Assembly: GCF_025629245.1 (NCBI RefSeq)
Contig: NZ_JANZXN010000058.1
Coordinates: 1 to 56,828 of the forward strand
Source of the DNA: Natronobiforma cellulositropha
GTDB lineage: Archaea > Halobacteriota > Halobacteria > Halobacteriales > Natrialbaceae
DNA length: 56,828 nucleotides
Direction: 5' to 3'
A program made the position numbers and the translations under genes. The notes beneath the pieces are model-generated. The model searched no databases. It was not told the DNA's origin and worked only from the letters and a program-made list of their open reading frames with translations. This document shows positions 21,790-41,624 of this stretch, in pieces; position 1 is the first letter of the stretch, and each line of letters opens with the position of its first letter.

Positions 21790-23418
21790 ATGAGACAGAG
21801 GACGACATCCGAACGAGGAGCACAGTCTACGAGCGACCGGTTCGACGTCGGCGAGGCGTCCCGTCGTGACTTTTTGAAAGCCGCGGGTGTCGGGGCCGGT
21901 GCGTTGGCACTCGGCGTCTCGGCGAGCACCACCGCCGCGGCCGAACCCCAGATCTCGACGCCGTGGCTCCACGTCGACGGCAACCTCGTCAAAGACGAGG
22001 ACGGGAACACGGTCAAACTGCGCGGGCTGAACATCGCCGACCCGAAGCGGATGAACACCGAGGCGGCGGCGATGGGCAAGACCGCAGAGCAGGCGGTCGA
22101 CATGCTGACCGACCAGGACGAGGGCTGGTACCCGCGCGTGATCCGTATCCCCGTCCAGCCACAGGACATCGCCGAACTGATGCCCGGCCACATCGCCGGC
22201 CCATCCGATCCGATCGCCTTCACCGAGGCGGAACTGCTCGAGTACCTGGAGACGCACCTCGACCCAGTCATCGAGCAGTGTCGCCAGCGCGGCGTCTACG
22301 CCATCGTCGACTTCCACCGCCACTGGACCGGCGGCGACGGCTGGACTGGCGACTGGGACGACCCTCAGTACCAGGACGCCCTGTTCGAGGAGGTCGACAT
22401 GTTCTGGGACATCGTCGCCCCCAGATACGCAGATCAGTCACACGTCCTCTACGAGGTCTACAACGAGCCAACGACGCCCGGAATCTGGGGTACGCCAGAC
22501 GGCGGCGAACACGACAACTGGACGAACATCTGGCTCGAGTGGAAGGAGTTCTCCCAGCCGTGGGTCGACACCATCCGCGAGCACGCCGACAACATCGTGA
22601 TCATCGGCTCGCCGAGCTGGACGCAGAGTCCGGAAGGTGCACTCGTCGAACCGTACGAGGGTGAAAACCTCGCCTACGCCTACCACATCTACCCCGGTCA
22701 CACGGTGAGCGGAACCGACGACTGGGCCGGTCCTGGCCCGAACGGCGAGGGTGTCAACCACGTCTACGAGGAGTTCCCCCTGTTCGTCACCGAGTTCGGT
22801 TGGGACGACCTCAACGTGGTCGACCACGGCCACGATACCGCCCAGTACCTCGCGGGGACGACCTCCGAGTTCGGCGAACCGTTCATGGACTTCCTCGAGT
22901 CGAGCGACGCCATCAGCTGGACGGCGTGGTGTGCTCACCCGACGTGGCTCCCCGCGATGTTCTCCCGGCCGTTCCTCCCCGAGGACGCACCGGACGAACC
23001 CTACGACAACCCGTACGAAGACCCCATTCCGGAGTACTGTGAAGATCTCCCCTGTGAGTGGGACCTCCTCGGCGTCGACGACGGCGACTACGACGCCCAC
23101 ATGGGCGGCTACATCAAGGACGTCCTCGAGGAGTACAAAGACGACCTGATCCCCGGTGCGGAGACGCCTGGGAGCGGCAACGGTGACGACCCATCCGGTC
23201 TCGACGTCAACGGTGACGGCAACGACGCCCAGGACCTCACCGGTGACGGTCTCTACGAGGACATCACCGGCGACGGTAACCTCGGCTTCAACGACGTCGT
23301 GACGTTCTTCGAAGAGCACAACGGCGACGTCGTCCAGTCGAACGTCGAGTACTTCGACTTCTCGGGCAACGGCAGCGTCGGCTTCAACGACGTCGTCTCG
23401 CTGTTCGAGCGTCTGTAA
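21790..23418 (+). CDS. GH5 endoglucanase with dockerin-like module (first of six)
   Basis: The protein has 542 residues: a Tat leader (SRRDFLK at 24-30), a GH5 barrel (about 56-450) and a dockerin-like module (470-542). The catalytic acid/base is Glu226 in YEVYNEPT and the nucleophile is Glu335 in FVTEFGW; the barrel opens with WLHVDGNLVKDEDGNTVKLRGLN. The C-terminal module has calcium loops of the DxTxDG...D type. It should cleave beta-1,4-glucan outside the membrane; cellulase versus mannanase cannot be settled without more data. ATG 21790 is preferred over GTG 21775. It is the first gene of the locus, has its own leader, and its closest relative is the gene at 32452. Confidence 0.9.
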   Translation: MRQRTTSERGAQSTSDRFDVGEASRRDFLKAAGVGAGALALGVSASTTAAAEPQISTPWLHVDGNLVKDEDGNTVKLRGLNIADPKRMNTEAAAMGKTAEQAVDMLTDQDEGWYPRVIRIPVQPQDIAELMPGHIAGPSDPIAFTEAELLEYLETHLDPVIEQCRQRGVYAIVDFHRHWTGGDGWTGDWDDPQYQDALFEEVDMFWDIVAPRYADQSHVLYEVYNEPTTPGIWGTPDGGEHDNWTNIWLEWKEFSQPWVDTIREHADNIVIIGSPSWTQSPEGALVEPYEGENLAYAYHIYPGHTVSGTDDWAGPGPNGEGVNHVYEEFPLFVTEFGWDDLNVVDHGHDTAQYLAGTTSEFGEPFMDFLESSDAISWTAWCAHPTWLPAMFSRPFLPEDAPDEPYDNPYEDPIPEYCEDLPCEWDLLGVDDGDYDAHMGGYIKDVLEEYKDDLIPGAETPGSGNGDDPSGLDVNGDGNDAQDLTGDGLYEDITGDGNLGFNDVVTFFEEHNGDVVQSNVEYFDFSGNGSVGFNDVVSLFERL

Positions 23419-23468
23419 GACGCTCGAGCTTACGAGACTCCCGTCTCGGAGTGTTCGAGATGCTCTAA
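23406..23468 (+). repeat. Stop-codon hairpin with one echo copy (50-base period)
   Basis: CGAGCGTC (23406-23413) pairs perfectly with GACGCTCG (23419-23426), and the loop TGTAA contains the gene's stop codon. A second stem, CGAGAC/GTCTCG, follows at 23433-23448. The piece GTGTTCGAGATGCTCTAA at 23451-23468 repeats the gene end (Val-Phe-Glu-Met-Leu-stop) exactly 50 bases after the corresponding true end, in another frame. The structure may act as terminator or mRNA stabiliser. Confidence 0.75.
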
Positions 23469-23704
23469 CGTCAGAACCGATCCTCACCACTTCTTTCGTT
23501 GGTCTCGTACCGGCCGGCAGACGGCGCTGTGAGACGCCGTCGACAGTCGGAAATCCATTCCTCGTCTCCAGTCGTCCGGCACGCATATTTGCGTCATTCT
23601 AGCAGTAATAATAATAGTGTACTAGTTCGAACTGAGTCCAGGGCCACGGTGTGATTCTCCCCCACCACTCGCTACCGCAACCCGGGGAGACGGCAAGAGT
23701 ACCC

Positions 23705-26143
23705 ATGACACAGGAATCCGATCCCACACGCACGAACCGACCGACACCGCTCTCGAGACGCCGGTTTCTCCAGACCAGTTTGCTCGCCGGGGCGGGGACG
23801 GTGCTCTCGAGCGGGGCGGCCGCGGCGTCGACGGACGCGGCCGAACTGTTCCACGCCGACTTCGAGTCGGTCGAGACGGGAGCCTACGAGCCGAGTCGCC
23901 TCGAGTGGGGCGGCAACGACCTCTCGGTCGTCTCCGAGGAGTTCCTCTCGGTCGAACGCGAGGAGTCGGGCAATCAGATTCTCGTCGGGCGGTTCCCCGA
24001 GGGTGTCGAGGGGGCAGGAAACGGTAACGGCGGCGGTGACTTCATCGTCGACCTGGGTGCGGCGTACGACGAACTCTACTGTGCCTACCGGATCAGGTTC
24101 GACGAGGGCTTCGAGTTCCACCAGCCGGGTGGGAAACTGCCCGGACTCGCCGGGACCGACGGCGAGAGCCGCTCGATCACCGGCGGTGACGTTCCCGACG
24201 GCGAGAACGGCTGGTCGGCGCGGATGATGTGGCGAGACCCGCCGAACCCAGACGACGGCGGCCTGGTGATGTTCTACACCTACCACCCCGACATGCCCGA
24301 CGAGTACGGTGACAACCTCTACTGGGATCACGGCCCGTCGGGACAGGTCCACTTCCAGCCCGGCGAGTGGCACCTGATCGAACACCGCGTCGTGATGAAC
24401 ACCCCCGGTGAGAACGACGGGATACTCGAGGGCTGGTTCGACGGCGAGAAGGCCTACGAGAACCACGGGATGCGTTTCCGTGACACGGCCGACCTCGGCA
24501 TCGACGACTTCTACTTCTCGCTGTTCTTCGGCGGTGGCCAGACCGACCACTGGGCGCACGACCGCGAGGAACAGATCGCCTTCGACGACGTGGTCGTCTC
24601 GAGCGAGCCGATCTGGCTCGACGACGACGAGCCACCCGCCGCCCCGGAGACGCTCGAGTCCGTCGACGTCGGCTCGACGAGTGTCGACCTCGCCTGGTCG
24701 GCCAGCGAGGACGCAGGCGGTTCCGGCCTGGCGGGTTACTGCCTCTACGCCAACGGCCGGCTTCGCGAGGAGGTGAGCGCGACCACCACGGAGGCGACCC
24801 TCGAGCGCCTCGTCGCGGGCACCGAACACGAACTCGCGGTCTCGGCGGTCGACCACGCGGGCAACGAGTCCGCGACGGCGACGGTCACCGTCGAGACCGA
24901 GCCGCTCGAGTCGACGACGCCGCCGTCGCGCCCGGCCGGACTCACGGTCACGGACCACCAGCTCGAGTGGCTCGACCTCGCGTGGGACCCCGCCGAGAGC
25001 GAGGTCGGCCTGGCTCACTACGAGGTGTCCGTCGACGGAACGCTCGAGCACCGACTCGAGCCGGAGACGACGGCAACGCGCGTGAGCGGACTCTCGCCCG
25101 ATACGGCCTACGACCTCGCAGTGTCGGCGGTCGACCTCGCCGGAACCACCGGTGACCAGGCGACGCTCCGTACGGGGACGGCTCCCGTGCGTGCCGACGA
25201 GGACGCACTCGTCGTCCACCGCTTCGGTGCGGGTCGCTGGCCCGGTGAGAACGCCCTCGGCGAGTGGGCGGGCAGCGGGAACTTCCTGTCCGACGACGAA
25301 CTCACCGACGCGCTCCGTCTCGAGTACGACGACAGCGGCTGGGTTCGCAGCTACGTCGACCGGGACGTCTCGGCGTACGACTACCTGACGCTCGTCGCTC
25401 GCGGCGACCGGGGTGGCGAGGAGAGTCACCTGGTGGTCGAACTCGACGGCGAGGGCGGGCGCCTCGTCGACCTCACCGACGACGCGGTGGGTACGACGCC
25501 GTCGGCGGTTCGAATCCCCCTCTCGAATCTGGGTGAGCCGTCGCTGGCCGACAACCTCTACATGAGCTTCACCGAGGGCGGGGCCGGTGCGCTCGAGTTC
25601 CTCGAGATCCGCTTCGAGACGGCGTTCGACCCCGCTGTTCCGGACGGGCCGAACCTGCCTGCGAATCTGGCCGTGACGGAGACGACGACCGAGTCGGTGA
25701 CGCTCGCGTGGGACGAACCCGCGGGGTCGTTCTCACACTACGCCGTCTACGTCGACGGCCGCTATCGCACCTGGAGCGAGGACGAGCCGACGGCGACGGT
25801 CGACGGACTCGAGGCGGACACCGAGTACGAGTTCGCGGTGCGGACCATCGGGGCGAACGACGAAGAGTCCAGCCCCGCGACGCTCACGGTGCGGACCGAG
25901 TCGGACGAGGAGGACGCACTCGAGATTCACGCCGACGGCGTCACGTACACGCCGGCTGACCTGACCGGAGACGGCCTGTACGAGGACGTGACGGGCGACG
26001 GAACCCTCGGCTTCAACGACGTGGTGGTCTTCTTCGACAACCTCGACGACCCCGTGATCGTCGACAACCCGGCCAGATTCGACTTCAGCGGAACCGGCGA
26101 TGTTGGCTTCGCCGACGTGATCGCGCTCTTCGAACTCGTCTAG
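23705..26143 (+). CDS. PL14-like polysaccharide lyase with FN3, beta-sandwich and dockerin-like modules
   Basis: The protein has 812 residues. A Tat leader (SRRRFLQ at 17-23) precedes a jelly-roll domain (about 47-305) that resembles polysaccharide lyase family 14: YCAYRIRFDEGFEFHQPGGKLPGL, GWSARMMWR, YTYHPDMPDEYGD, and the FFGGGQTDHWAHD segment near the end. Then follow two FN3 domains (about 308-398, 402-492), a CBM-like sandwich (about 500-640), a third FN3 (645-732) and a divergent dockerin-like module (750-812). Family members cleave glucuronan or alginate; the natural substrate here is unknown. ATG 23705 has the Tat motif in the right place. The dockerin differs from the others (DFSGTGDVGFAD). 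Confidence 0.75.
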   Translation: MTQESDPTRTNRPTPLSRRRFLQTSLLAGAGTVLSSGAAAASTDAAELFHADFESVETGAYEPSRLEWGGNDLSVVSEEFLSVEREESGNQILVGRFPEGVEGAGNGNGGGDFIVDLGAAYDELYCAYRIRFDEGFEFHQPGGKLPGLAGTDGESRSITGGDVPDGENGWSARMMWRDPPNPDDGGLVMFYTYHPDMPDEYGDNLYWDHGPSGQVHFQPGEWHLIEHRVVMNTPGENDGILEGWFDGEKAYENHGMRFRDTADLGIDDFYFSLFFGGGQTDHWAHDREEQIAFDDVVVSSEPIWLDDDEPPAAPETLESVDVGSTSVDLAWSASEDAGGSGLAGYCLYANGRLREEVSATTTEATLERLVAGTEHELAVSAVDHAGNESATATVTVETEPLESTTPPSRPAGLTVTDHQLEWLDLAWDPAESEVGLAHYEVSVDGTLEHRLEPETTATRVSGLSPDTAYDLAVSAVDLAGTTGDQATLRTGTAPVRADEDALVVHRFGAGRWPGENALGEWAGSGNFLSDDELTDALRLEYDDSGWVRSYVDRDVSAYDYLTLVARGDRGGEESHLVVELDGEGGRLVDLTDDAVGTTPSAVRIPLSNLGEPSLADNLYMSFTEGGAGALEFLEIRFETAFDPAVPDGPNLPANLAVTETTTESVTLAWDEPAGSFSHYAVYVDGRYRTWSEDEPTATVDGLEADTEYEFAVRTIGANDEESSPATLTVRTESDEEDALEIHADGVTYTPADLTGDGLYEDVTGDGTLGFNDVVVFFDNLDDPVIVDNPARFDFSGTGDVGFADVIALFELV

Positions 26144-26190
26144 GCACTCCCGTTTTTCGCCGTCCAATCCCTATATTTTCTCACCGACAG

Positions 26191-26205
26191 AAAAATTTAA
26201 TTAAC
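26191..26205 (+). promoter_or_regulatory. TATA box of the second GH5 gene
   Basis: The sequence AAAAATTTAATTAAC lies 74-88 bases before the ATG at 26279. Nearly the same element (AAAAATTTAACAC) precedes the GH5 gene at 37557, and related elements precede the genes at 29456 and 30706. Confidence 0.55.
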
Positions 26206-26278
26206 ACTGGTGACGACTTCTATCGGACACGCCTACATGGGTGTGCAGGGTCAGACGAGCGGTCACACGAGAGTTACT

Positions 26279-29176
26279 ATGAGAGACGATACGACACGAC
26301 ACGGACGGACGGAACAGCAAACGGACACGGGAGCGACCCGGCGTGACTTCCTGAAAGCGGCGAGTGCAGGTGCCGTGGCGACCGGTCTCGGTCTCGGGGC
26401 CGGTGCCGTCGGCACGGCGAGTGCCTCGAGCGGGATCAACACGCCGTGGCTCCACGTCGAGGGGAACACGGTGAAAGACCCCCTCGGGAACGAGGTCATC
26501 CTCCGCGGGGTGAACGTCCCGGACCCCAAACGGCTCAACGTCACCGCGCCAGCGCGTGGGAAGAACGCGGAGCAACTGATCGACATGGCGACGAGCGCCG
26601 ACGATGGCTGGTACTCGCGGGTCGTCAGACTCCCGGTCCACCCCGGTGACATCGCCGAGTTACCGCCGGTGCCCGAAGCCGATGTCGACGTACACGTACC
26701 GCCGACGTTCACGCGAGAAGAACTCGAGACCTACATCGAAGACCACCTCGACCCGGCGGTCGAGCAGTGCTGGGACCGGGGCGTCTACTGTATCATCGAC
26801 TACCACCGCCACTGGGGCGAGGGTGAACTCGAGTGGAACTACGGACCGCTCGACGAGGAGGTGCGGATGTTCTGGGACGTCGTCGCCAGCCACTACGACG
26901 ACCACCCGCACGTCATCTTCGAGGTGTACAACGAACCGACGCTGCCCGGGATGTACGGCGAGTGGGGAACGGCAGACCTCGAGAACACCTGGCGCGAGTG
27001 GAAGGATACGGCCCAGCCCTGGGTCGACCAGATCCGCGAACACGCCCCCGACAACCTGATCATCATCGGTTCGCCGGGGTGGAGTTCCTCGCCGGAGGGG
27101 GCGATGATCGAGGAGTTCGACGGCGAGAACCTGATGTACGCCTACCACATCTACTCGGGTCACGGCCTGCGGAGTGAGGAGGACTTCGACGGCCGTGAGG
27201 AGGCCGAGGCGACGAACGGTGTCTGGGAACACGTTCCGGTGTTCTGTACCGAGTTCGGCTGGGAGACCCTGCGCCAGGGTGAAGCACCCGGGAGTGCGAT
27301 CGAGTGGCTCGACGGCCAGACCGACGACTTCGGTGAGGCCATCTACAACTGGATGGACAACCGGCCGATCCACTGGACGGTGTGGTGTTTCGACATCACA
27401 TGGCTCCCCTCGATGTTCGAGCGCGGATTCACCGACGAGGACCCGGTCGACGCGATGGGCGACCCCTACAGCGCGGAAGGCGTCCCCGAGGACTGCCCGG
27501 ACCTCCCGTGTGAGTGGGACCTCTTGGGCGAGGACGTCGGCGCCTACGACGACTACATGGGCGCGTTCATGAAGGAGTGGCTCTACGACCGGCGCAACGA
27601 CGACCTCCCGCAGGTCGACTACGACCCCTACCCGCCGGAAGTCCCCGAGGACCTGACCGTGATCGACGCCGACGAGCGGAGCGTCGACATCTCCTGGAGT
27701 CCGGTCGACTCACCCGGTGACTCGCCGTTCTCCCACTACAACGTCTACGTCGACGGCGAGAAACACACCGAGGTCACCGACACCGAGGTCACCGTCGACG
27801 ACTTGCTCTCGGACACGACCTTCGAGATCGGCGTCTCCGGCGAGGACGGCACCGGCAACGTCTCCGAACCGGCGACGATCGAAGCGACGACCGAACCCAT
27901 CGACGACGACACGCCACCGACGATTCCCGGCGGTCTCACCCTCGAGTCGCGAACCTACCACTCGCTGACCATCGAGTGGGAGGAGTCCGCGGCGAACGGC
28001 CCGGCGGACGTCTTCGAGTACGTCGTCTACGTCGACGGCGCAGAACACGAGCGCGTCCCCGACGGGACGACCACGACGACGCTCGAGGACCTCGATCCGT
28101 CGGCGCAGTACGAGGTCGCCGTCACGGCGTTCGACCGGGCGAGCAACGAGTCCGATCCGAACGCCATCGTCCTCGAGACGCGCTCGAACCGCGCGACCGA
28201 GAACGACCTGCTGATCAACGACTACGGTTCGGACTCGCCGTGGCCGAGTAGCAACATGCTCGACGAGTGGGTCGGCGGCGACTACGAGGGCGTCTCCGAC
28301 GGAGTGCTCCGCCTCGAGTACGACGACATCTGGTGGTACGCGACGGGCGTCAACCGCGACATCACCGACCACGCCGAGTTGCGGCTGCTCGTCCGCGGTG
28401 ACGAGGGCGGCGAAGAACGCGAGATCGACATCCGGTTCGCCGACCTCGACCAGTCGCTCGCGAGCCTCTCCGAGGATACGATCGGCACCGAGTTCGACGT
28501 CTTCATCATCGATCTCGAGGCCGCGGACGCCGATCTCACAGACCCCGGTCAGATCCAGTTCCAGACGGATATCGGAACCAGTGGTGCGATCGAGATCGAC
28601 GAGATCTGGCTGGCTGCCGAGGACGACCCGGCAGACGGCATCGTCGACGAGGACCCAGACGTGGGCGCGGACGTCTCGCCACCGCACGCATTCACGGTCG
28701 AGTCGACCACGGAGTCGTCGGTGACCGTCTCGTGGGGTGTCGACGTGCCGGACGATGCCGACATCTACGTCGACTACTACAACGTCTACCTCGGCGGGAG
28801 TCACTACGCCGAAGTCGACGAGGGTGAGATCACGATCGACGGTCTCGACGCGGGAACGACCTACACCATCGGCGTCTCCGCTGTCGATCAGGACGGCAAC
28901 ACGACGACGGTGAGTACGATCCAGGCGACGACCGACGGCGGCGAGGAACCGGCGGGTCTCGACGTCACCGGTGACGGCAACGCGGCGCAGGACCTCACTG
29001 GCGACGGACTCTACGAGGACATCACTGGCGACGGGAACTTCGGGTTCAACGATGTCGTGACGTTCTTCGAAGAACACGACGGCGACGTCGTCCAGAACAA
29101 CGTCGAGTACTTCGACTTCAGCGACAGCGGCAGTGTCGGGTTCAACGACGTGGTTGCGTTGTTCGAGCGGCTGTAA
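26279..29176 (+). CDS. Large GH5 hydrolase with three FN3 domains, beta-sandwich and dockerin-like module
   Basis: The protein has 965 residues: Tat leader (TRRDFLK at 20-26), GH5 barrel (about 50-440; Glu219 in FEVYNEPT and Glu325 in FCTEFGW), FN3 at about 454-538 and 547-635, a sandwich of unknown type at 640-780, a third FN3 at 800-886, and the dockerin-like module at 893-965. The 640-780 sandwich (LLVRGDEGGEEREIDIRF) matches the equivalent domain of the PL14-like neighbour, which shows module exchange. ATG 26279 is chosen over 26210 because it puts the Tat motif about 20 residues from the start. The enzyme is probably secreted and active on beta-glucan. Confidence 0.88.
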   Translation: MRDDTTRHGRTEQQTDTGATRRDFLKAASAGAVATGLGLGAGAVGTASASSGINTPWLHVEGNTVKDPLGNEVILRGVNVPDPKRLNVTAPARGKNAEQLIDMATSADDGWYSRVVRLPVHPGDIAELPPVPEADVDVHVPPTFTREELETYIEDHLDPAVEQCWDRGVYCIIDYHRHWGEGELEWNYGPLDEEVRMFWDVVASHYDDHPHVIFEVYNEPTLPGMYGEWGTADLENTWREWKDTAQPWVDQIREHAPDNLIIIGSPGWSSSPEGAMIEEFDGENLMYAYHIYSGHGLRSEEDFDGREEAEATNGVWEHVPVFCTEFGWETLRQGEAPGSAIEWLDGQTDDFGEAIYNWMDNRPIHWTVWCFDITWLPSMFERGFTDEDPVDAMGDPYSAEGVPEDCPDLPCEWDLLGEDVGAYDDYMGAFMKEWLYDRRNDDLPQVDYDPYPPEVPEDLTVIDADERSVDISWSPVDSPGDSPFSHYNVYVDGEKHTEVTDTEVTVDDLLSDTTFEIGVSGEDGTGNVSEPATIEATTEPIDDDTPPTIPGGLTLESRTYHSLTIEWEESAANGPADVFEYVVYVDGAEHERVPDGTTTTTLEDLDPSAQYEVAVTAFDRASNESDPNAIVLETRSNRATENDLLINDYGSDSPWPSSNMLDEWVGGDYEGVSDGVLRLEYDDIWWYATGVNRDITDHAELRLLVRGDEGGEEREIDIRFADLDQSLASLSEDTIGTEFDVFIIDLEAADADLTDPGQIQFQTDIGTSGAIEIDEIWLAAEDDPADGIVDEDPDVGADVSPPHAFTVESTTESSVTVSWGVDVPDDADIYVDYYNVYLGGSHYAEVDEGEITIDGLDAGTTYTIGVSAVDQDGNTTTVSTIQATTDGGEEPAGLDVTGDGNAAQDLTGDGLYEDITGDGNFGFNDVVTFFEEHDGDVVQNNVEYFDFSDSGSVGFNDVVALFERL

Positions 29177-29330: not shown

Positions 29331-29352
29331 CAGTACTCGAGTGGAACAGAGG

Positions 29353-29369: not shown

Positions 29370-29455
29370 TCGACGGCAGTGTGTAATCGAACACCTTCGA
29401 TCGTGTACCCGGCGGTCTGATCTGGGGACAGAGCGGTCGGGGAGGACACACAGTC

Positions 29456-30478
29456 ATGAGAGAGACGGACACACCTTCGAACGGAGACGAACAGCCTTCG
29501 ACGCAGCCAGTCGTCGCTAGCCGACGCGACGTGTTGAGAACCGCAGCGACCAGTGCGCTCGTCGCCTCCCTCGGCGTCGCTGGCGTCACCACAGCCAGCG
29601 CCGTCGAAGACGGTGACGACGCCGACGATGCGGGTATCGTCGACTACGACCTGGGAACGTCGCGCTACGCCGTCGGCGACCCGGAGGGTCTCCCGGAGAT
29701 CCTCTTCGGGGACGACCTCGAGATTCGCGGAACGATCTGGCTCCCCACGACGAACTGTCACACGGTAGAGCTCGTCGACCTCGAGTACGACACGGAACGC
29801 AGCCACCTGACGATGACCGTCGCCGACGGTCTCGAAGACCACGTCGACGACGAGAGCGACTGTTCAGACACGCAGGTACCGATCCGCTACACCCTCACCG
29901 TCGACTTCGAAGACGGGCTACCAGAGACCGTCACCGCCATCGAAGACGACGCCGAGACGACCCGTCAGCTGACGGTCGCGAGCGACGGGAGCGCCCTCCC
30001 GCCCGCGCCGAGTTCACTCGAGGCGGTCTCGGTGACCGACTCCGCGGCCGAACTCGAGTGGGACGGCGACGCTGACGCGTACGCGGTGTACGTCGACGGC
30101 GACCTCGCCACGGAGGTCGACGAGACGGCGGCGACGGTCGACGGTCTCGAGTCGGACGCGACCTACGAGGTGGCCGTGACGGCAGTCGACGGCGACGGCG
30201 TCGAGTCGATGCCCGCGACGACCACCGTCACGACCGAGGAGGGCGAGGGGGCGTTCGAGCTAGACGTCAACGGTGACGGCAACCCGGCGCAGGACCTCAC
30301 CGGAGACGGTCTCTACGAGGACATCACTGGCGACGGGAATCTCGGGTTCAACGACGTGGTGACGTTCTTCGAAGAGCACAACGGCGATACGATCCAGAAC
30401 AACGTCGAGTACTTCGACTTCAGCGGCAACGGCGGCGTCGGCTTCAACGACGTCGTCGCCCTCTTCGAACGGCTGTAA
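29456..30478 (+). CDS. Tat-exported non-catalytic protein with FN3 and dockerin-like module
   Basis: The protein has 340 residues: a Tat leader (SRRDVLR at 22-28), an unrecognised beta-rich domain (about 55-175), one FN3 domain (about 181-262) and the dockerin-like module (267-340). The middle domain has Cys residues in TTNCHTVEL and DDESDCSD that may form a disulfide, and no recognisable catalytic site. It could be a carbohydrate-binding, adaptor or anchoring component of the same system. It has its own TATA box and ends in a stop-codon hairpin. The module makes membership of the locus certain, but the function stays open. Confidence 0.8.
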   Translation: MRETDTPSNGDEQPSTQPVVASRRDVLRTAATSALVASLGVAGVTTASAVEDGDDADDAGIVDYDLGTSRYAVGDPEGLPEILFGDDLEIRGTIWLPTTNCHTVELVDLEYDTERSHLTMTVADGLEDHVDDESDCSDTQVPIRYTLTVDFEDGLPETVTAIEDDAETTRQLTVASDGSALPPAPSSLEAVSVTDSAAELEWDGDADAYAVYVDGDLATEVDETAATVDGLESDATYEVAVTAVDGDGVESMPATTTVTTEEGEGAFELDVNGDGNPAQDLTGDGLYEDITGDGNLGFNDVVTFFEEHNGDTIQNNVEYFDFSGNGGVGFNDVVALFERL

Positions 30479-32394: not shown

Positions 32395-32451
32395 TCTGTG
32401 GGGGATGATAACACAACCTGCAGAGACGGGTGTGCTCTGTGGGTGTATTCC

Positions 32452-35037
32452 ATGAGACGACATCGACCGACGACCTCGAGTGACGAATCGAGCGCCCTCC
32501 TCGGTGGGACGAGACGCGACTTCCTGAAGGCGACCGCGGGTGCAGGTGCGGTGCTCGCCGGGTTGGGTGTCGGTGCGAGCGGGACGGCATCGGCGGGCAT
32601 CCCGACGCCGCGGCTCCACGTCGACGGCAACCTCGTGAAAGACCCCGACGGGAACACGGTGGTGCTCCGCGGGCTCAACATGGCCGACCCGAAGCGGCTG
32701 AACGTCACTGCGCCAGCGCGCGGGAAGAACGCCGAACAGGTCGTCGACTTCCTCACCGACGAGAGCCAGGGCTGGTACCCGCGGATCATCCGCGTTCCCG
32801 CCCAGCCGACGGACATCGGCGAGCACGAACCCGGCCACTCCGGCGGCCCGCCGGAGCCGGTGGCGTTCACCGAAGCCGAACTCCTCGAGTACTTAGAGAC
32901 CCACTACGACCCGGTCGTCGAACAACTGCGCCAGCGCGGCGTCTACATGATCGTCGACTTCCACCGCCACTGGGAGGGACTCGAGTGGGACACGCCAGCG
33001 CTGTCTGACGAAGTCGAGCTGTTCTGGGACGTCGTCGCCGAGCGATACGCCGATCGGGATCACGTCCTCTTCGAGGTGTACAACGAGCCGACCGAGCCGG
33101 GAATGTGGGGCGACCCGACCGAGATGGAGGGTGTCGCAGAGACCTGGCGCGAGTGGAAGGAGACGGCCCAGCCGTGGGTCGATACGATTCGCGAGCACGC
33201 GGACAACATCGTCCTCATCGGCTCGCCGAGCTGGACCCAGAGTCCCGAGGGCGTCTACATCGAACCGTTCGACGGCGAGAACCTCGCCTATACCTACCAC
33301 ATCTACGCGGGCCACCCCGTCAGCGGGGACCAGGCGTGGGCCGAGGCGGCGGGCAACGGCGAGGGAACCGACGGTATCTACGAGGAGGTTCCCCTCTTCG
33401 TCACCGAGTTCGGCTGGGAGACCAACAACGTCAGCCACCAGGTGCTCCAGGGCCAGACGAGCGACTTCGCCGATCCCTTCTTCGAGTGGCTCGAGTCGAG
33501 CGACGGCATCCACTGGACGGCGTGGTGCGCAGATCCCGTCTGGCGGCCGGTCATGTTCAGCAGGCCGTTCATCGGCGAGGACCCGGCGAACCCCGAGGAC
33601 GTCGACTCTATCGGACACGTCTACGAGGATCCGATTCCGGAACACTGTCCGAACCTCCCGTGTGAGTGGGAACTGCTCGGCGGCGAGCACTACGCGGGCG
33701 AGTACGTCAAAGCGTTCCTCGAGGAGTACAAAGACGAGGACCTCCCCGGGGCGGCCTACGACACCGTTGCCCCGCCCTCGCCGCCGGGACTCGAGGTCAC
33801 CTCGGCGTCGTTCACCGAACTCGACCTCGCGTGGGAGGCTGTGGACGACTCGGGTGAGGCCGGAATGTCTCACTACAACGTCTACGTCGACGGCGACCAC
33901 CACGCGTCGGTGTACGACGGAACGGAGACGACGCTCACCGGACTGACCGCGGAGACCGACTACGAAATCGCGGTCACCGCCCAGGACCGGGCGGGCAACG
34001 AGTCCGGCGAGTCGACGGTTTCGGCGAGTACGGAGTCGTTCGAGGACGATACGCCACCGACGCCGCCGTCGAGTCTCGAGGTGCTCGAGGTCTCCCAGTC
34101 GAGTGTCACCCTCGAGTGGGACGCGGCCGAACCGGGCGGTGACGCCTGGCTGACCGGTTACCGGATCGCTGTCGACGGCGCGTTCGACCACGAGGTCGGC
34201 GAGGAGACGACGGAGACGACGGTCGTCGGCTTGCAGTTCGAGACGAGCTACGAGTTCGCCGTGACCGCAGTCGACGCGGCGGGCAACGAGTCGGAGTCGG
34301 TCACCGTCTCGGCGACGCCGACCTCACACCCCGACCAGGAGCCGTTCAACGGCCCGCACACGATTCCGGGCCGCGTCGACGCCGTCGACTTCGACCAGGG
34401 TGGTGAGGGCATCGCCTTCGAGACGGAGGGGGGCGGCGGGAGCGGCTACCGCGACGACCAGGCGGGGATGGAACAGACCCCCGGCGGGGGCTACCACCTC
34501 GCGTTCATCGAGTCGGGCGACTGGTGGGAGTACACCGTCGAGGTCGAAGGTCCCGGCACCTACGAGGTGAGCGTCGGCGTCGCGAGTGCCGACGGCTTCG
34601 ACGGCGGGGCGCTCGACGTCTACGTCAACGACCAGGTCGTCGACAGCATCGTCTTCGATTCGACCGGCGGCTGGCACGAGTTCGAGGCGGTCGAGGGCGG
34701 CGAGGTCGACCTCGAGGCGGGGCTCAACATCGTCCGTATCCAGACGACGGCCGACGAGTTCAACTTCCAGTGGTTCGAGTTCGACGGCGAGCCCGGAGAG
34801 ATCGACGAGCCAGTCGACCTCGACGTGAGCGGCGACGGCAACCCGGCCCAGGACCTGACCGGTGATGGTCTCTACGAGGACATCACTGGCAACGGCCAGC
34901 TCGGCTTCAACGACGTCGTGACGTTCTTCGAAGAGCACAACGGCGACGTCGTCCAGAACAACGTCGACTACTTCGACTTCAGCGGCAGTGGGAGCGTCGG
35001 CTTCAACGACGTCGTCGAACTCTTCGAGATGCTGTAG
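32452..35037 (+). CDS. GH5 hydrolase with two FN3 domains, CBM6-like module and dockerin-like module
   Basis: The protein has 861 residues: Tat leader (TRRDFLK at 20-26), GH5 barrel (about 50-435; Glu212 in NEPTEPG, Glu319 in VTEFGW), FN3 at about 441-527 and 535-622, a CBM6-like module at 628-778 (GYHLAFIESGDWWEYTVEVE and the NIVRIQTTADEFNFQWFEF end), and dockerin-like module at 788-861. CBM6 modules bind xylan or beta-glucan. ATG 32452 is supported by its position before the Tat motif; an upstream frame opens at 32398. Over 57 consecutive bases its dockerin DNA is identical to that of the gene at 21790, which points to recent exchange. Confidence 0.9.
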   Translation: MRRHRPTTSSDESSALLGGTRRDFLKATAGAGAVLAGLGVGASGTASAGIPTPRLHVDGNLVKDPDGNTVVLRGLNMADPKRLNVTAPARGKNAEQVVDFLTDESQGWYPRIIRVPAQPTDIGEHEPGHSGGPPEPVAFTEAELLEYLETHYDPVVEQLRQRGVYMIVDFHRHWEGLEWDTPALSDEVELFWDVVAERYADRDHVLFEVYNEPTEPGMWGDPTEMEGVAETWREWKETAQPWVDTIREHADNIVLIGSPSWTQSPEGVYIEPFDGENLAYTYHIYAGHPVSGDQAWAEAAGNGEGTDGIYEEVPLFVTEFGWETNNVSHQVLQGQTSDFADPFFEWLESSDGIHWTAWCADPVWRPVMFSRPFIGEDPANPEDVDSIGHVYEDPIPEHCPNLPCEWELLGGEHYAGEYVKAFLEEYKDEDLPGAAYDTVAPPSPPGLEVTSASFTELDLAWEAVDDSGEAGMSHYNVYVDGDHHASVYDGTETTLTGLTAETDYEIAVTAQDRAGNESGESTVSASTESFEDDTPPTPPSSLEVLEVSQSSVTLEWDAAEPGGDAWLTGYRIAVDGAFDHEVGEETTETTVVGLQFETSYEFAVTAVDAAGNESESVTVSATPTSHPDQEPFNGPHTIPGRVDAVDFDQGGEGIAFETEGGGGSGYRDDQAGMEQTPGGGYHLAFIESGDWWEYTVEVEGPGTYEVSVGVASADGFDGGALDVYVNDQVVDSIVFDSTGGWHEFEAVEGGEVDLEAGLNIVRIQTTADEFNFQWFEFDGEPGEIDEPVDLDVSGDGNPAQDLTGDGLYEDITGNGQLGFNDVVTFFEEHNGDVVQNNVDYFDFSGSGSVGFNDVVELFEML

Positions 35038-35187
35038 GTCCGGCCCGGAAACCGCGTTTTCCCCTCCTGTGTGCGCGTCGACGACCCTCCCGTCACCGCC
35101 GATCCTGCCGGCGCGTCGTACGACCGCCACCGACTGCCGTATGCCACCTTCAACATTATATTACCCGCTCGAGAATATTAGATCAAG

Positions 35188-35203
35188 ACAATAAAACCTT
35201 AAG
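35188..35203 (+). promoter_or_regulatory. AT-rich promoter of the GH10 gene
   Basis: ACAATAAAACCTTAAG is one of several AT-rich elements at 35152-35203, about 100 bases before the ATG at 35305. It is the closest to a TATA box; the leader would be of moderate length. Confidence 0.35.
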
Positions 35204-35304
35204 TTTGTCCGGTGTTTACTCGAGGTAGTCACGAGGCGGGACAGGTACGGCTGTGGGCGTGGGTCCGCGGCCGATGGCTGACAGCACAACTCACTACGAA
35301 ACCT

Positions 35305-37089
35305 ATGACAACCAACGATCGAACGGAAACGGGCGACAGCGGCGAGCAAACGACGGTTCATCCTCCGCGCCACCGCGGACCGTCCCGCTCACCCACCGAC
35401 GAGAGCACCGCAGACTCGAGCGACGGACTGCTCGGGTCGATCGAGCGACGCGATTACCTCCGTGCGATGGGTGCGGCGGGACTGCTCGGCGCACTCGGTG
35501 CCGGAAGCGCGCCAGCAGCCAGCGCCTACTACTCACCGCGAGGCGAGTGGGAGGCCGACGCCGACGCGCGCATTCAGGAACACCGCACGAGCGACGTCGA
35601 CATCGTCGTCGAAGACGGCAACGGCAACGCCGTCTCGGGTGCCGACGTCTCTATCGAGATGCAGGAGCACGATTACGGCTTCGGGACGGCCGTCGCCGCC
35701 GAACTCGTCACTCGCGGGACGATCTGGGGCGAACAGCAACACTCCGAGTCCGACGCCGAGCAGTATCGTGAGTACATCCCGGAACTGTTCAACAAGGTCG
35801 TCTTCGAGAACCTCCACAAGTGGGGTATCTACGAGGACAACCAGGAGATTGCAGACGAGACGGTCGAGTGGATGCGCGACCGCGACCTCGAGATTCGCGG
35901 CCACGTCTGTCTCTGGGGCAACGTCGACGCGTGGGCGATTCCGCCGGACGTCGTCGAGGCGATGGGTGTCGACTGGCAGAACGGTCACGAGGACTTCACC
36001 GCGCCGGACCACGACCCCGACTACGTCGTCGACCGCTCGATGGAGCACATCGAGACGATCATCGAACACTACGGCAACGACATCGCCGAGTGGGAGGTCG
36101 TCAACGAAGTGATCCACGAGACCGAGATGATCGAGGCTGTCGACGGCCACGGTGTCGACCCCGTCGAGGCACCGATCCTCGCCGACTGGTACCTGAAGGC
36201 CCAGGAAGTCGCAGACCAGTACGACATTCCGATCGCCGTCAACGACTACAACACGCTCGTCGGTCCGTACCAGAACACCCGCGACGACTACAACCGACAG
36301 ATCGAGTTCCTCCTCGACAACGGTGTCGACTTAGACGGCATCGGCTTCCAGTGTCACTTCGGTGACTTCGAGCGTATCACCTCCGCTGAGATCATGGATG
36401 CGCTCGACGACTACTCCCAACACGGCGTCCGTCTCCGTGCGACGGAGTTCGACACCTTCCAGGGCGACTGGACGCGCGAGGAGCAGGCAGACTACCTCTA
36501 CGAGTTCATGAAGACGTTCTTCAGCCACCCCAACACGGACGACTTCCTCATCTGGGGCTTCTGGGACGGCGAGCACTGGGGGCCGGATGCGGGCGGCAAC
36601 GCCGACGCGCCGCTGTTCGAGGAAGACTGGACGCCCAAACCAGCCTACGACGTCTGGATGGACCTGGTCTTCGACGAGTGGTGGACCGACGAGTCCGGCA
36701 CCACCGACACCAGCGGCACGTTCTCCACCACGGCGTTCCTCGGCGAGCACGAGGTCACCGTCTCCGCCGGCGGCGAGACGACCACCGAAACCGTCTACAT
36801 CGACGACTCGAGTTCGACGACCATCACCATCAACACCGACGGTGAAGGACCCGGACCGGACCCCGACGGACTCGACGTCAACGGCAACGGCATGGACGCC
36901 CAGGACCTCACCGGTGACGGTCTCTACGAGGACATCACCGGCGACGGGAACCTCGGGTTCAACGACGTCGTGACGTTCTTCGAAGAACACAACGGCGACG
37001 TCGTCCAGTCGAACGTCGAGTACTTCGACTTCTCCGGCAGCGGAAGCGTCGGCTTCAACGACGTCGTCTCGCTGTTCGAACGGCTGTAG
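35305..37089 (+). CDS. GH10 endo-1,4-beta-xylanase with dockerin-like module
   Basis: The protein has 594 residues. After an unusually long N-terminal stretch of about 48 residues comes a Tat leader (ERRDYLR at 47-53), an Ig-like N-terminal segment (about 95-125) and a GH10 barrel to about 460. The acid/base is Glu268 in EWEVVNEV and the nucleophile is Glu381 in LRATEFD; HVCLWGN and the DDFLIWGFWDGEHW region are GH10 hallmarks. A short sandwich (about 465-510) leads to the dockerin-like module (522-594). It hydrolyses xylan outside the membrane. ATG 35305 fits the Tat motif better than the open frame from 35212. Confidence 0.93.
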   Translation: MTTNDRTETGDSGEQTTVHPPRHRGPSRSPTDESTADSSDGLLGSIERRDYLRAMGAAGLLGALGAGSAPAASAYYSPRGEWEADADARIQEHRTSDVDIVVEDGNGNAVSGADVSIEMQEHDYGFGTAVAAELVTRGTIWGEQQHSESDAEQYREYIPELFNKVVFENLHKWGIYEDNQEIADETVEWMRDRDLEIRGHVCLWGNVDAWAIPPDVVEAMGVDWQNGHEDFTAPDHDPDYVVDRSMEHIETIIEHYGNDIAEWEVVNEVIHETEMIEAVDGHGVDPVEAPILADWYLKAQEVADQYDIPIAVNDYNTLVGPYQNTRDDYNRQIEFLLDNGVDLDGIGFQCHFGDFERITSAEIMDALDDYSQHGVRLRATEFDTFQGDWTREEQADYLYEFMKTFFSHPNTDDFLIWGFWDGEHWGPDAGGNADAPLFEEDWTPKPAYDVWMDLVFDEWWTDESGTTDTSGTFSTTAFLGEHEVTVSAGGETTTETVYIDDSSSTTITINTDGEGPGPDPDGLDVNGNGMDAQDLTGDGLYEDITGDGNLGFNDVVTFFEEHNGDVVQSNVEYFDFSGSGSVGFNDVVSLFERL

Positions 37090-37139
37090 GCCGTTCGAGC
37101 TCGCTGAGCTTCGCTCAGGGGGTGTTCGAGATGCTCTAA
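37072..37139 (+). repeat. Stop-codon hairpin with one echo copy (50-base period)
   Basis: CGAACGGC (37077-37084) pairs perfectly with GCCGTTCG (37090-37097), and the loop TGTAG contains the stop. A second stem, CTGAGC/GCTCAG, lies at 37104-37118. The echo GTGTTCGAGATGCTCTAA is at 37122-37139. The stem uses different bases from the copy at 23406 but keeps all pairs. Confidence 0.75.
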
Positions 37140-37515
37140 CGCTCGAGTCGACTGTCCGCCATCCGAGTCGACGCACCATCGACTCACCGTGCCTTTTCGG
37201 TTTTCGCCCTCCACCGTCGAGCGCCGTCCTCACTCTGTGGAGGTCTACGGTGGCCGTGTACACACCATCGCAACCCGCTCGAGCGAGCAGACGGACGAGC
37301 AGTCACACGCACGACGCGCGGCCCGCGATAGTTACGACGAACGAATCGACGCCGACCACTCGAGTGCCATACATGTCTCCAGCGTCGACGGGTCCATTCC
37401 ATTGTGGCTGGTGTTGCTCCCAGAAGCACTGGTATAGCCGCCACTGTAGCCAAACGATTCTGTCACCACGCCTATAGTGACACAGTAAGTTTTCAATAGT
37501 TTATATCCTATAGAG
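37140..37515. other. Intergenic stretch without a convincing gene
   Basis: Short frames on both strands look random. The right part (37470-37540) is AT-rich and holds the promoter of the next GH5 gene. Confidence 0.5.
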
Positions 37516-37530
37516 ATAAAAATTTAACAC
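37516..37530 (+). promoter_or_regulatory. TATA box of the fifth GH5 gene
   Basis: ATAAAAATTTAACAC lies 27-41 bases before the ATG at 37557, so the transcript may be nearly leaderless. It is almost identical to the element at 26191. Confidence 0.55.
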
Positions 37531-37556
37531 AGACGAATTTGAATATACTGCCGCCT

Positions 37557-39038
37557 ATGGCACAGGATGGCACTTCGCTGGCAGCAGACGATGCTGGCGA
37601 TGACCGACACGACACGACGCGACGAACGTTTATGAAAGCAGCGGGGGCCGGCGTAGGGGCCCTCGCCCTCGGCGGGTTCTCCGGATCGGCGACGGCATCG
37701 GTCGGTAACCCGACGCCCCGACTCAGCACCGACGGCAAGTGGATCGTCAACCCCGACGGCGAGCGGGTCAAACTCCGTGGCTTCTCGACGGCGAGCCTCG
37801 ATTTCACCGAGATTGGCCACTCAGAGGGGTGGATCCCCTACTCCGTCGAGGAGGTTCTGGAGCGAGCGACAGACGGCGAGAAGTGGCACCCCAACACGGT
37901 TCGCATCCCGATCACCGAAGACCCGGTCCACGACCACGGGATGGACTACGTCGTCGAGGACCTCCTGCGGCCGGCGATCGACTACCTCGCCGACCGCGGC
38001 GTCTACGCGATGATCGACTTCCACCTCATCCGTCCCTACGTCGAGGCTCGAGCCAACGCCGAAGGGATGACCGAAGACGGCTGGGCCGACGACGACTACA
38101 GCCACGGCTTCAACCCTGACGTCGAGACCGACGACCTCCTCGTCGAGTTCTGGGACGCGGTCGCCCCGGAGTTCGCCGACGACGAACACGTCATCTACGA
38201 ACTGTACAACGAACCGACGCTCCCGGTCGCCTGGTCGACCTACGGCGACTACGGACCGGAGGTCACGAGTCGCGAAGACTCCTGGCTGCTCTGGCGTGAC
38301 GTCGCCCAGCCCTGGGTCGACCTGATCCGCGAGCACGCCCCCGAGACGCCGATCATCATCGGCTCCCCCCACTGGACCTCCGAGACGCAGTTCGCCCCGG
38401 AGTACCCATTCGAGGGCGAGAACCTCATCTACGCCAGTCACATCTATCCGGACAACGGCTACCCCGGGGAGTTCGACGAGGAGTACGGCGCACCCGCAGA
38501 AGAGGTGCCCGTCGTCTGTACGGAGTTCGGCTGGGACCCCGACGAGGAGTTCCGCGAGACCGTCGAGTTCGGCACCACGAGTGAGTGGGGTTCGCCCTTC
38601 ATCGAGTGGCTCGAGTCCTACGACAACATGGGCTGGCAGGCCTGGTGTTTCGACTGGGCGTGGCAACCGACGTTCTTCGACGAAACCAGCGATGGCTGGG
38701 AGCTGAAAGACGGCGAAGAACAGATGGGCTGGTACATCCGGGACGTACTCGAGGACACTAAAGACGACATGATCGTCGGTGAGAGTGATGGAGACGATGA
38801 CGATGACGCCCCATCCAATCTCGACGTCACCGGCGACGGCAACCCTGCCCAGGACCTCTCGGGTGACGGTCTCTACGAGGACATCACCGGTGACGGTAAC
38901 CTCGGCTTCAACGATGTCGTCGAGTTCTTCGAGAACCACGACGGTGACGTCGTCCAGAACAACGTCGAGTACTTCGACTTCTCCGGCAGCGGCAGCGTCG
39001 GTTTCAACGACGTCGTCGCCCTCTTCGAGATGCTCTAG
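37557..39038 (+). CDS. GH5 hydrolase of the second clade with dockerin-like module
   Basis: The protein has 493 residues: Tat leader (TRRTFMK at 21-27), GH5 barrel (about 52-410) and dockerin-like module (about 421-493). It belongs with its downstream neighbour to a second GH5 clade, opening with LSTDGKWIVNPDGERVKLRGFSTAS and having IDFHLIRPY in place of VDFHRHW. Glu219 in YELYNEPT and Glu323 in CTEFGW are the likely catalytic pair. The substrate may differ from that of the first clade. It ends in a stop without a strong hairpin. The start fits a close TATA box. Confidence 0.88.
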   Translation: MAQDGTSLAADDAGDDRHDTTRRTFMKAAGAGVGALALGGFSGSATASVGNPTPRLSTDGKWIVNPDGERVKLRGFSTASLDFTEIGHSEGWIPYSVEEVLERATDGEKWHPNTVRIPITEDPVHDHGMDYVVEDLLRPAIDYLADRGVYAMIDFHLIRPYVEARANAEGMTEDGWADDDYSHGFNPDVETDDLLVEFWDAVAPEFADDEHVIYELYNEPTLPVAWSTYGDYGPEVTSREDSWLLWRDVAQPWVDLIREHAPETPIIIGSPHWTSETQFAPEYPFEGENLIYASHIYPDNGYPGEFDEEYGAPAEEVPVVCTEFGWDPDEEFRETVEFGTTSEWGSPFIEWLESYDNMGWQAWCFDWAWQPTFFDETSDGWELKDGEEQMGWYIRDVLEDTKDDMIVGESDGDDDDDAPSNLDVTGDGNPAQDLSGDGLYEDITGDGNLGFNDVVEFFENHDGDVVQNNVEYFDFSGSGSVGFNDVVALFEML

Positions 39039-39182
39039 TCACCACTCAGTCGTCTGCGTCTACGCCGTTCGAACCACTGGCGCGCTCGACCACCGGGCTC
39101 GAGTGCCCAATGGCTATCACCTCACCGATATTTGATGAACGAACGATACAGTTATTCTATTCCTACACAGTTACGATTAAAA

Positions 39183-41624
39183 ATGGACGTGAACAACACG
39201 CAACAGCGATCGGATGGATCGACACGACGAACGTTCCTGAAGGCGGCCGGGACCGGTCTCGGTGGTCTCGCCATCGGCGGTCTCTCGAGCAGCGCCGGGG
39301 CGGTCGGGATTCCGACACCCAGACTCCACACGGAGGGGAAGTGGATCGTCGACCCCGACGGCAACCCGGTTACGCTCCGCGGATTCGCGACCGCGGGGCT
39401 GGGATACATGTCCTACGACTGGTATCCACGGACCGTCGAGGAGGTGCTCAACCACGCCGTCGACGGCGAGACGTGGCACCCGAACATGATCCGTCTGCCC
39501 TGCGGTCTCGGCGGCATCCGGGACTACGGCGGCATCGAACCCTTCGTCGAGGAGGTGCTCAGACCGGCGGTCGACCTGCTCTACGCACGTGGCGTCTACG
39601 CGATGATCGACTTCCACCTCATCATGCCGTACACGCAGGAGGCGATCGACGACTACAACGAGGAGACCGACGAGGACGACCAGTACGACCCCATCGACGA
39701 GGTGATGGAGTGGTTCTGGGACGTCGTCGCCCCGGAGTTCGCCGACGACGAACACGTCCTCTACGAACTGTTCAACGAACCGACCTACCCGTACATCTGG
39801 GACGAGTACGGCCAGGAGGTCGACCGCGAGGAGTCCTGGCTGCTCTGGCGCGACGTCGCCCAGCCGTGGGTCGACCTCGTACGCGAACACGCCCCCGAGA
39901 CGCCCATCGTCATCGGCTCTCCCGGCTGGACCTCCGAGACACAGTGGGCACCCGAGTACCCCTTCGAGGGTGAGAACCTCGTCTACGCCAGCCACATCTA
40001 CCCCGCCAACGGCGACCCCGACGAGTTCGACGAGGAGTACGGCGCACCCGCCGAGGAGGTGCCCGTCATCTGCACCGAGTTCGGCTGGGACCCCGACAGC
40101 TGGGACGTCGACGAGGGGTCGACCACCGAGTGGGGCGCGCCCTTCCGCGAGTGGATGGACTCCTACGAGAACATGGGCTGGCAGGCCTGGTGTTTCGACG
40201 ACACCTGGGCACCCACCTTCTTCGACTCACCCGACGAGGGCGTCGGCGTCCCCTGGGAACTCAAAGACGACGAGGAGCAGATGGGCTGGTTCATCCGCGA
40301 GTGGCTCGCAGAGACCAGAGACGACGGGCTTCCGGCCGACCAGCTCGGCGACGACGTGCCGCCGGAGCCACCGAGCGACCTCACCGTCACGCGGGCCGCC
40401 GAAATCGCCGCCGACCTCGAGTGGGAGCCTGCCACCGACCCCGGAGACGCGGGCGTCGTCCTCTACAACGTCTTCCTCGACGGCGAGTTCTCCCACGATG
40501 TCGTCGCCGCGAGCGGAACCGAGACGACCATCGACGGTCTCGAGCCTGGCCGAAGCTACGAGGTGACGGTGACGGCGGTCGACCGCGTCGGCAACGAATC
40601 CGACGAGGCGGCCGTGACGGTCGACACCATTCCCTACGGGACGGGCCAGACACCGTTCGACGGCCCGAACGAGGTCCCCGGACGCATCCAGGCCGAGGAC
40701 TTCGACGAGGGCGGTCCCGGTACCGCCTACTCCGTCACCGCCGACTCACCCGCCGACACCGACTACCGCGAGACGACCGTCCCGCTCGAGGAGAACGGCA
40801 CCTCCGGCTACAACATCGGCTTCCTCGACACCGGCGAGTGGTGGGAGTACACCGTCGACGTCGAGACCAGTGGTACCTACGACATCTCGGTCAACGTCGC
40901 CTCCGAGAACCCCGAAGGTGGGGCGCTCCGGGTCGAACTCGACCGCGAGGAAGTCGCGAGCACCACCGTCTGGCACACCGGCGGCTGGGCCGACTGGACC
41001 GAGGTCCGCGTCGGTGCCGCCGACATCCCGGCGGGACGCCACATCGTCCGCGTCTCCGTCGAGGCCGACGGGTGGAACTTCGACTGGCTCGAGTTCGACC
41101 TGGACGAAGCCCACGACGACTTCCCCGACGAACCCGACGCTCCCTCGAACCTCACCTCGCCAGCCCAGACCGAGACGAGCGTCGACCTCGCGTGGGACGC
41201 CGTCGAGGACGCAGACACCTACGCCGTCTACGTCGACGGCTCGCTCGACCACGAGGTCGACGGCCTGCGGACGAGTACGACCGTCGAGGGCCTCTCGGCA
41301 GGAACGGCCTACGTCGCCGGCGTCTCCGCGATCGGGACCGACGGCGCGGCGTCCCCACTCGAGACGATCAGCGTCTCGACCGAGGGCGGGGAGGACTCCG
41401 TCGACCTCGACGTCACCGGCGACGGCAACCCCGCCGGGGACCTGACGGGTGACGGACTCTACGAGGACGTGACGGGTGACGGCCAGCTGGGCTTCAACGA
41501 CGTCGTCACGTTCTTCGAAGAACACGACGGCGACGTCGTCCAGTCGAACGTCGAGTACTTCGACTTCTCGGGCAGCGGCAGCGTCGGCTTCAACGACGTC
41601 GTCGCCCTCTTCGAGCGCCTGTAG
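39183..41624 (+). CDS. GH5 hydrolase of the second clade with FN3, CBM6-like and dockerin-like modules
   Basis: The protein has 813 residues: Tat leader (TRRTFLK at 14-20), GH5 barrel (about 44-385; Glu199 in YELFNEPT, Glu299 in CTEFGW), FN3 at about 393-482, CBM6-like module at 488-640 (GYNIGFLDTGEWWEYTVDVE), a second FN3 at 652-734 and the dockerin-like module at 741-813. The barrel is closely related to the preceding gene, so the two look like a tandem duplication, while the CBM6 resembles that of the gene at 32452. ATG 39183 follows an AT-rich stretch, and a TATA-like TTATTCTATT is about 25-35 bases upstream, so it may be leaderless. Confidence 0.9.
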   Translation: MDVNNTQQRSDGSTRRTFLKAAGTGLGGLAIGGLSSSAGAVGIPTPRLHTEGKWIVDPDGNPVTLRGFATAGLGYMSYDWYPRTVEEVLNHAVDGETWHPNMIRLPCGLGGIRDYGGIEPFVEEVLRPAVDLLYARGVYAMIDFHLIMPYTQEAIDDYNEETDEDDQYDPIDEVMEWFWDVVAPEFADDEHVLYELFNEPTYPYIWDEYGQEVDREESWLLWRDVAQPWVDLVREHAPETPIVIGSPGWTSETQWAPEYPFEGENLVYASHIYPANGDPDEFDEEYGAPAEEVPVICTEFGWDPDSWDVDEGSTTEWGAPFREWMDSYENMGWQAWCFDDTWAPTFFDSPDEGVGVPWELKDDEEQMGWFIREWLAETRDDGLPADQLGDDVPPEPPSDLTVTRAAEIAADLEWEPATDPGDAGVVLYNVFLDGEFSHDVVAASGTETTIDGLEPGRSYEVTVTAVDRVGNESDEAAVTVDTIPYGTGQTPFDGPNEVPGRIQAEDFDEGGPGTAYSVTADSPADTDYRETTVPLEENGTSGYNIGFLDTGEWWEYTVDVETSGTYDISVNVASENPEGGALRVELDREEVASTTVWHTGGWADWTEVRVGAADIPAGRHIVRVSVEADGWNFDWLEFDLDEAHDDFPDEPDAPSNLTSPAQTETSVDLAWDAVEDADTYAVYVDGSLDHEVDGLRTSTTVEGLSAGTAYVAGVSAIGTDGAASPLETISVSTEGGEDSVDLDVTGDGNPAGDLTGDGLYEDVTGDGQLGFNDVVTFFEEHDGDVVQSNVEYFDFSGSGSVGFNDVVALFERL

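Follow-up and report, generated by a model that had tools for sequence, protein, structure and literature searches.

A candidate cellulosome-type system in the haloarchaeon Natronobiforma cellulositropha: dockerin-bearing enzymes and a putative scaffoldin

Nine consecutive genes of the haloarchaeon Natronobiforma cellulositropha very probably encode dockerin-bearing subunits of an archaeal cellulosome-type complex. The genes lie at positions 21790–41624 of contig NZ_JANZXN010000058.1 (assembly GCF_025629245.1), of which we analyzed 56,828 nucleotides (the window), and all of their products carry at the C-terminus a 76-residue module whose calcium loops are of dockerin type. Cellulosomes are usually attributed to anaerobic bacteria and fungi as their speciality. 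A first-pass annotation of the window had favored a dockerin whose partner lies elsewhere, and this gained support from the genome search for cohesin-fold partners that it had proposed: a scaffoldin, an anchor and adaptor cohesins were found on contigs C23/C60, C13 and C26. Domains, folds, export and anchor signals, gene linkage and co-occurrence speak for this reading in our computations. From these we infer that dockerin and cohesin bind each other, that calcium drives this contact and that a large complex results.

Results

As the first-pass annotation had stated, no cohesin was found in the window; cohesins are present elsewhere in the genome. The scaffoldin is encoded inside a second dockerin cluster, on the minus strand of C23 (positions 3–3563), and continues at C60:3–866. 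A twin-arginine translocation (Tat) leader and a GH5 domain are followed by five tandem repeats of about 130 amino acids with acidic linkers, and the reading frame then runs off the end of C23. C60 opens within a cohesin repeat and proceeds with a CBM5/12 domain (PF02839, 31.2 bits, above cut-off), a PKD domain and a stop codon. Both contig ends overlap with 230 of 232 nucleotides identical, hence C23 and C60 are either adjacent or split by additional near-identical repeats. Like a scaffoldin, the protein thus split over two contigs combines several cohesins, at least five, with a CBM. With its GH5 domain at the start it departs from the usual non-catalytic backbone; a catalytic scaffoldin is, however, known in Acetivibrio, and lack of catalysis is thus not a strict requirement.

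Between two dockerin enzyme genes of C23 (6049–6681, minus strand) lies the gene for a 211-residue protein with a signal peptide, one repeat and a hydrophobic C-terminal tail, predicted from these features to be membrane-anchored. The tandem repeats and this single cohesin form one domain family (E 1e-41 to 1e-57 to one model). Moreover, C13 and C26 each encode a protein of the order Tat-FN3-repeat-FN3-repeat-dockerin, assigned partly by eye. An open reading frame (ORF) at C23:29667–30287 (L028:9667–10287) holds the second half of a cohesin and a dockerin, with upstream pieces in other frames; it is probably a decayed cohesin-dockerin gene and was excluded from the counts of working scaffolds.

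Sequence searches of the PDB were uninformative for repeats and module, with no matches for the former and only EF-hand proteins among the best 60 for the latter, and a comparison of folds was therefore needed. The AlphaFold2 model of the repeat is a nine-stranded sandwich (predicted local distance difference test score, pLDDT, 96; predicted template modeling score, pTM, 0.87), that is, it has the nine-stranded β-sandwich of cohesins. Its leading Foldseek matches are cohesins (TM 0.80), and VIA re-alignment gave Z 15.8 over 124 residues for 2jh2, 14.0 for Archaeoglobus fulgidus 2xdh and 13.5 for CipA 1aoh. A profile-profile comparison matched the repeats to PF00963-type haloarchaeal cohesins (probability 90.3, E 1.5e-6). 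Judged by their modeled fold, the tandem repeats are cohesins.

The module in turn has the loops and fold of a type I dockerin, in which two F-hand calcium loops, with Asp at positions 1 and 12 and Asp or Asn near 3 and 5, are each followed by a helix. Its representative copy at 23188..23415 (plus strand) shows an N-terminal calcium-type loop, DLTGDGLYED, and the F-hand loops DITGDGNLGFND and DFSGNGSVGFND. Asp occupies loop positions 1 and 12 of both F-hand loops in 38/38 homologues, and a helix follows each loop in the AlphaFold2 model (residues 34–43 and 66–74; pLDDT 94.4 for the window module). The nearest PDB folds of this model are dockerins: all 22 rows of the VIA re-alignment are dockerin-containing chains, with 2vn5_B on top (Z 5.8, root-mean-square deviation 2.2, 52 residues). 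Foldseek E-values were weak, as expected at 55 residues, and an NCBIfam scan of the module gave no match. At loop positions 10–11, most copies in this genome read Phe-Asn in the first loop and either Phe-Asn or Phe-Ala in the second, and other pairs are found in other lineages; this variation might reflect a lineage-specific recognition set at these positions.

Presence and absence were compared over one set of 242 haloarchaeal genomes, with the cohesin family of the tandem repeats (A2 cohesin) scored at E 1e-3. The module occurs in 111 and the A2 cohesin in 100 of them; both are present in 94, the module only in 17, the cohesin only in 6 and neither in 125 (Fisher odds ratio 115). Collapsing to genera, the sole means by which kinship was handled, gave 38, 4, 1 and 31 in the same order. 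As a control, Pfam-type cohesins gave an odds ratio of 2.2 with the module. These counts bear on the possibility that the modules are salt- and calcium-dependent stabilizers or retention tags without a specific protein partner. High acidity, three calcium-type loops and the C-terminal position would suit such a tag, as would the module's presence on unrelated secreted proteins. The first-pass annotation had held that docking should be given up if such proteins commonly carried the module with no shared partner and it bound no cell component; PhoX phosphatases, a serpin and a solute-binding protein indeed carry it, but it mostly travels with the shared cohesin. Of the 142 cohesin-free genomes, 125 also lack the module, the cohesin is without the module in just 6 of 100, and the module model matches dockerins. 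Tags or self-association, both considered in the first-pass annotation, are biochemically conceivable but leave the co-occurrence with a cohesin-fold domain unexplained, and we regard a partnerless tag as very improbable.

Another candidate partner is a Pfam-type cohesin protein on C22 (L024:8039–8791; 250 amino acids, PGF-like tail), the sole Pfam cohesin above cut-off in the genome and the one we first took as the partner. It was rejected because the operon-like run in which its gene sits, with lipoprotein and peroxidase-type genes, is unrelated and because Pfam-type cohesins, which are also present in module-free relatives, do not track the module. Apparently it is not a cellulase partner, and there is hardly any chance that it is the one sought.

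The dockerin-scaffoldin arrangement recurs elsewhere. Seven other genomes have multi-cohesin scaffoldins within dockerin clusters, with 2–8 cohesin copies. G062, G104, G142, G143, G202 and G077 each combine 6–13 dockerins with a Tat-exported 2–4-cohesin protein adjoining dockerin genes, and most of these proteins end like the PKD of the Natronobiforma scaffoldin. In G002, a 2.72-Mb genome from a different family, we counted 70 dockerins and 14 cohesins; one of its proteins joins three cohesins to a dockerin, and another has two cohesins and a PGF tail. Among the products of G246, with its 29 dockerins, are a 1755-residue Tat-GH5-8×cohesin protein, which is intact, and a neighboring 258-residue anchored cohesin (L200:11114–17434). 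The protein lengths along its cluster (637, 610, 1755, 258, 589, 741, 577, 600, 592) are the same as in Table 1 of PMC10963439, by which G246 would be Natronoglomus mannanivorans. In that work the 1755-residue protein is named a GH5/CBM6 endoglucanase and the 258-residue protein an S-layer glycoprotein, the dockerin is interpreted as substrate binding, and the word cohesin is absent from the main text (PMC10963439). For an eight-cohesin scaffoldin and an anchored cohesin, these names are a probable mis-annotation.

The minimal and most widespread form, conserved in many haloarchaea, is a Tat-exported PhoX phosphatase ending in cohesin-dockerin and adjoining an anchored-cohesin gene, often with a PGF-type tail (L107, L108, L109, L110). 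This pair seems to serve phosphatase display, a function seemingly undescribed, and we take the system to have expanded from this form in polysaccharide-degrading genomes. One might hence argue for simple surface display also in Natronobiforma: dockerins would tie single enzymes to anchored cohesins only, the tandem-cohesin GH5 protein would be an enzyme whose repeats serve for binding or as a stalk, and no multi-enzyme complex would form. That the most widespread form consists of one PhoX dockerin protein and one anchored cohesin, and that this genome retains an anchored cohesin, is in agreement with such display. However, the tandem repeats share the family of the anchored cohesin, as given above, and recur as 2–8 copies in separate clusters, and a CBM-fused tandem array would be unnecessary for display alone. 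We thus consider display of single enzymes unlikely and prefer the cellulosome-type complex.

A different system was seen in G207 (C1:74000–113000; L112/L113) and also in G043. Several subtilases carry classical Pfam dockerins, most of them cohesins as well, and they adjoin a PGF-tailed ORF of 2024 amino acids with at least 14 tandem Pfam-type cohesins. By its appearance this is a counterpart of the cellulosome for proteases, anchored at the surface and distinct from the system in the window.

In the 3.76-Mb Natronobiforma genome, the search for further module genes that had likewise been proposed returned 47 copies by profile, and the 38 outside the window were examined singly. Fifteen form the second dockerin cluster at C23:3.8–38.4 kb. 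Domains on the 38 copies include ten GH5, four GH9, two GH10, GH26, GH43 and GH81; other carriers are a serpin, a solute-binding protein, sugar-dehydrogenase/plastocyanin proteins and further proteins without a Pfam match. As expected for a cellulosome, dockerins are thus found on many different polysaccharidases, from GH5, GH9, GH10, GH26, GH43 and GH81 to PL14. The Tat-exported serpin with dockerin (L104:5550–7109, G000:C6) has counterparts in clostridial cellulosomes, which also include serpin-dockerin proteins. An SBP_bac_5 solute-binding protein ends in a dockerin (L103:4055–5986, G000:C15), which suggests product capture at the complex; ANME archaea possess similar dockerin-bearing binding proteins (PMC9012536). 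Two giant surface-type ORFs of 2623 and 3851 amino acids also end in a dockerin (L034, G000:C11, and L035, G000:C34).

All nine plus-strand ORFs that the first-pass annotation had placed at 21790–41624 are present. Its count of six GH5, one GH10, one PL14-like and one non-catalytic product agrees with Pfam, which returned PF00150 six times, PF00331 and PF21294 once each, and only FN3 for the 340-residue product. The first gene (21775..23418, ATG at 21790) encodes an endoglucanase-type GH5 protein (PF00150 1.8e-28, TAT_signal 2.9e-5) with its dockerin at 23188–23415. It is followed by a PL14-like protein with three FN3 domains (23651..26143, PF21294 1.8e-34, dockerin 25913–26140), a GH5 protein with three FN3 domains (26210..29176, PF00150 2.6e-33, dockerin 28946–29173) and the non-catalytic, Tat-exported protein with one FN3 domain (29456..30478, PF00041 9.6e-7), whose dockerin at 30248–30475 scores 15.0 bits with Dockerin_1, below cut-off. 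Next come a GH5 protein (30706..32325, PF00150 8.7e-29, dockerin 32095–32322) and one of GH5, FN3 and CBM6 (32398..35037, PF00150 2.5e-28, CBM_6 2.9e-14, dockerin 34807–35034). The last three are a xylanase-type GH10 protein (35212..37089, PF00331 4.8e-39, dockerin 36859–37086), a GH5 protein (37539..39038, PF00150 4.6e-28, dockerin 38808–39035) and a second combination of GH5, FN3 and CBM6 (39132..41624, PF00150 1.9e-28, CBM_6 5.3e-17, dockerin 41394–41621). Tat leaders are indeed found on all nine, eight by regular expression and that of GH10, ERRDYLRA, by eye. Inspection by eye also showed intact acid/base and nucleophile motifs, NEP and TEFG in GH5 and NEV and TEF in GH10. The C-terminal calcium-loop module that the products were said to share is present in 9/9, but the PL14 copy deviates from the motif quoted for it (FDFSGTGDVGFAD) and is the most divergent: over the last 60 residues, the other eight are 85–98% identical to each other and 62–68% identical to it, far beyond chance. 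The gaps between the genes measure 66–449 bp and hence do not imply transcription as a single operon.

Discussion

We propose that the nine products fold in the cytoplasm and exit via the Tat route. Outside the cell, their C-terminal calcium-loop dockerins would plug into two kinds of cohesin. On the soluble, substrate-targeted scaffoldin, the CBM would bring the enzymes to the substrate, and the membrane-anchored single-cohesin protein would keep others at the cell surface. The FN3-cohesin-FN3-cohesin-dockerin proteins of C13 and C26 would serve as adaptors. Beyond this, we think it rather probable that a true archaeal cellulosome operates in near-saturated salt, with Tat-prefolded enzymes on GH5-headed scaffoldins and PGF-type anchors, and that its origin lies within haloarchaea, in a widespread two-gene PhoX-dockerin/anchored-cohesin display pair, with no contribution from clostridia. 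That the PhoX pair was the starting point is a guess based on its wide distribution.

Several observations weigh against a cellulosome-type complex. The Pfam scan with PF00963 gives no match for the repeats, and the window modules peak at 15.0 bits with the Pfam Dockerin_1 profile against a cut-off of 22.9, which is passed by three paralogues in the same genome and by one PhoX-type homologue (24.5 bits). The Natronobiforma scaffoldin is broken by the assembly within near-identical repeats, such that its cohesin count is only a lower bound, and neither a dockerin nor any route of cell attachment was seen on the scaffoldin itself. Among the 17 genomes with the module and no A2 cohesin are G079 and G089, with seven and five copies, respectively. 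The co-occurrence is, furthermore, partly trivial, as the PhoX-cohesin-dockerin protein carries both domains.

If the proposal holds, the complete haloarchaeal parts list of dockerins, scaffoldin, anchor and adaptors extends the range of cellulosomes to another domain of life and to extreme salt, in which protein–protein docking is chemically hard. It would also account for the breakdown of insoluble cellulose and mannan by haloarchaea. The finding would correct published annotations and offer salt-stable docking pairs.

Simple cellulosomes are known from mesophilic clostridia, for example those built on C. cellulolyticum CipC or C. cellulovorans CbpA. The system described here resembles them in its dockerin-bearing GH5, GH9 and other enzymes, its gene clusters and a tandem-cohesin scaffoldin that has a CBM and lacks a dockerin. 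In contrast to them, it is archaeal, Tat-exported and set in extreme salt; its scaffoldin is headed by GH5 and has poly-Glu/poly-Asp linkers, CBM5/12 and PKD replace CBM3, the cohesin family is unseen by Pfam, and the dockerin has an extra N-terminal calcium-type loop. Anaerobic fungi also build cellulosomes assembled by dockerins and thus offer a non-clostridial parallel for such multi-enzyme complexes, although the fungal dockerin type and scaffold are unrelated.

Archaeal cohesins and dockerins are found in A. fulgidus, whose cohesin 2xdh matched our repeat model at Z 14.0, and in ANME, where scaffoldin-like proteins combine a dockerin with as many as five cohesins; the same work cites the absence of scaffoldin-like proteins in other archaea (PMC9012536). 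The A. fulgidus and ANME proteins are not linked to polysaccharide degradation, whereas here dozens of dockerins on carbohydrate-active enzymes stand beside a CBM-bearing scaffoldin and an anchor. The mannan/cellulose island of Natronoglomus mannanivorans is a cluster of the same type with GH5, GH10, PL14 and "type I dockerin" proteins (PMC10963439). A comparative study of haloarchaeal cellulose use makes no mention of either dockerins or cohesins and describes the mechanisms as almost unknown (PMC10267330). In the open-access literature, preprints aside, we found no claim of an archaeal cellulosome, a haloarchaeal scaffoldin or a haloarchaeal cohesin/dockerin system. The type of machine is already known; its domain of life, its cohesin family and the combination with a catalytic scaffoldin head appear new.

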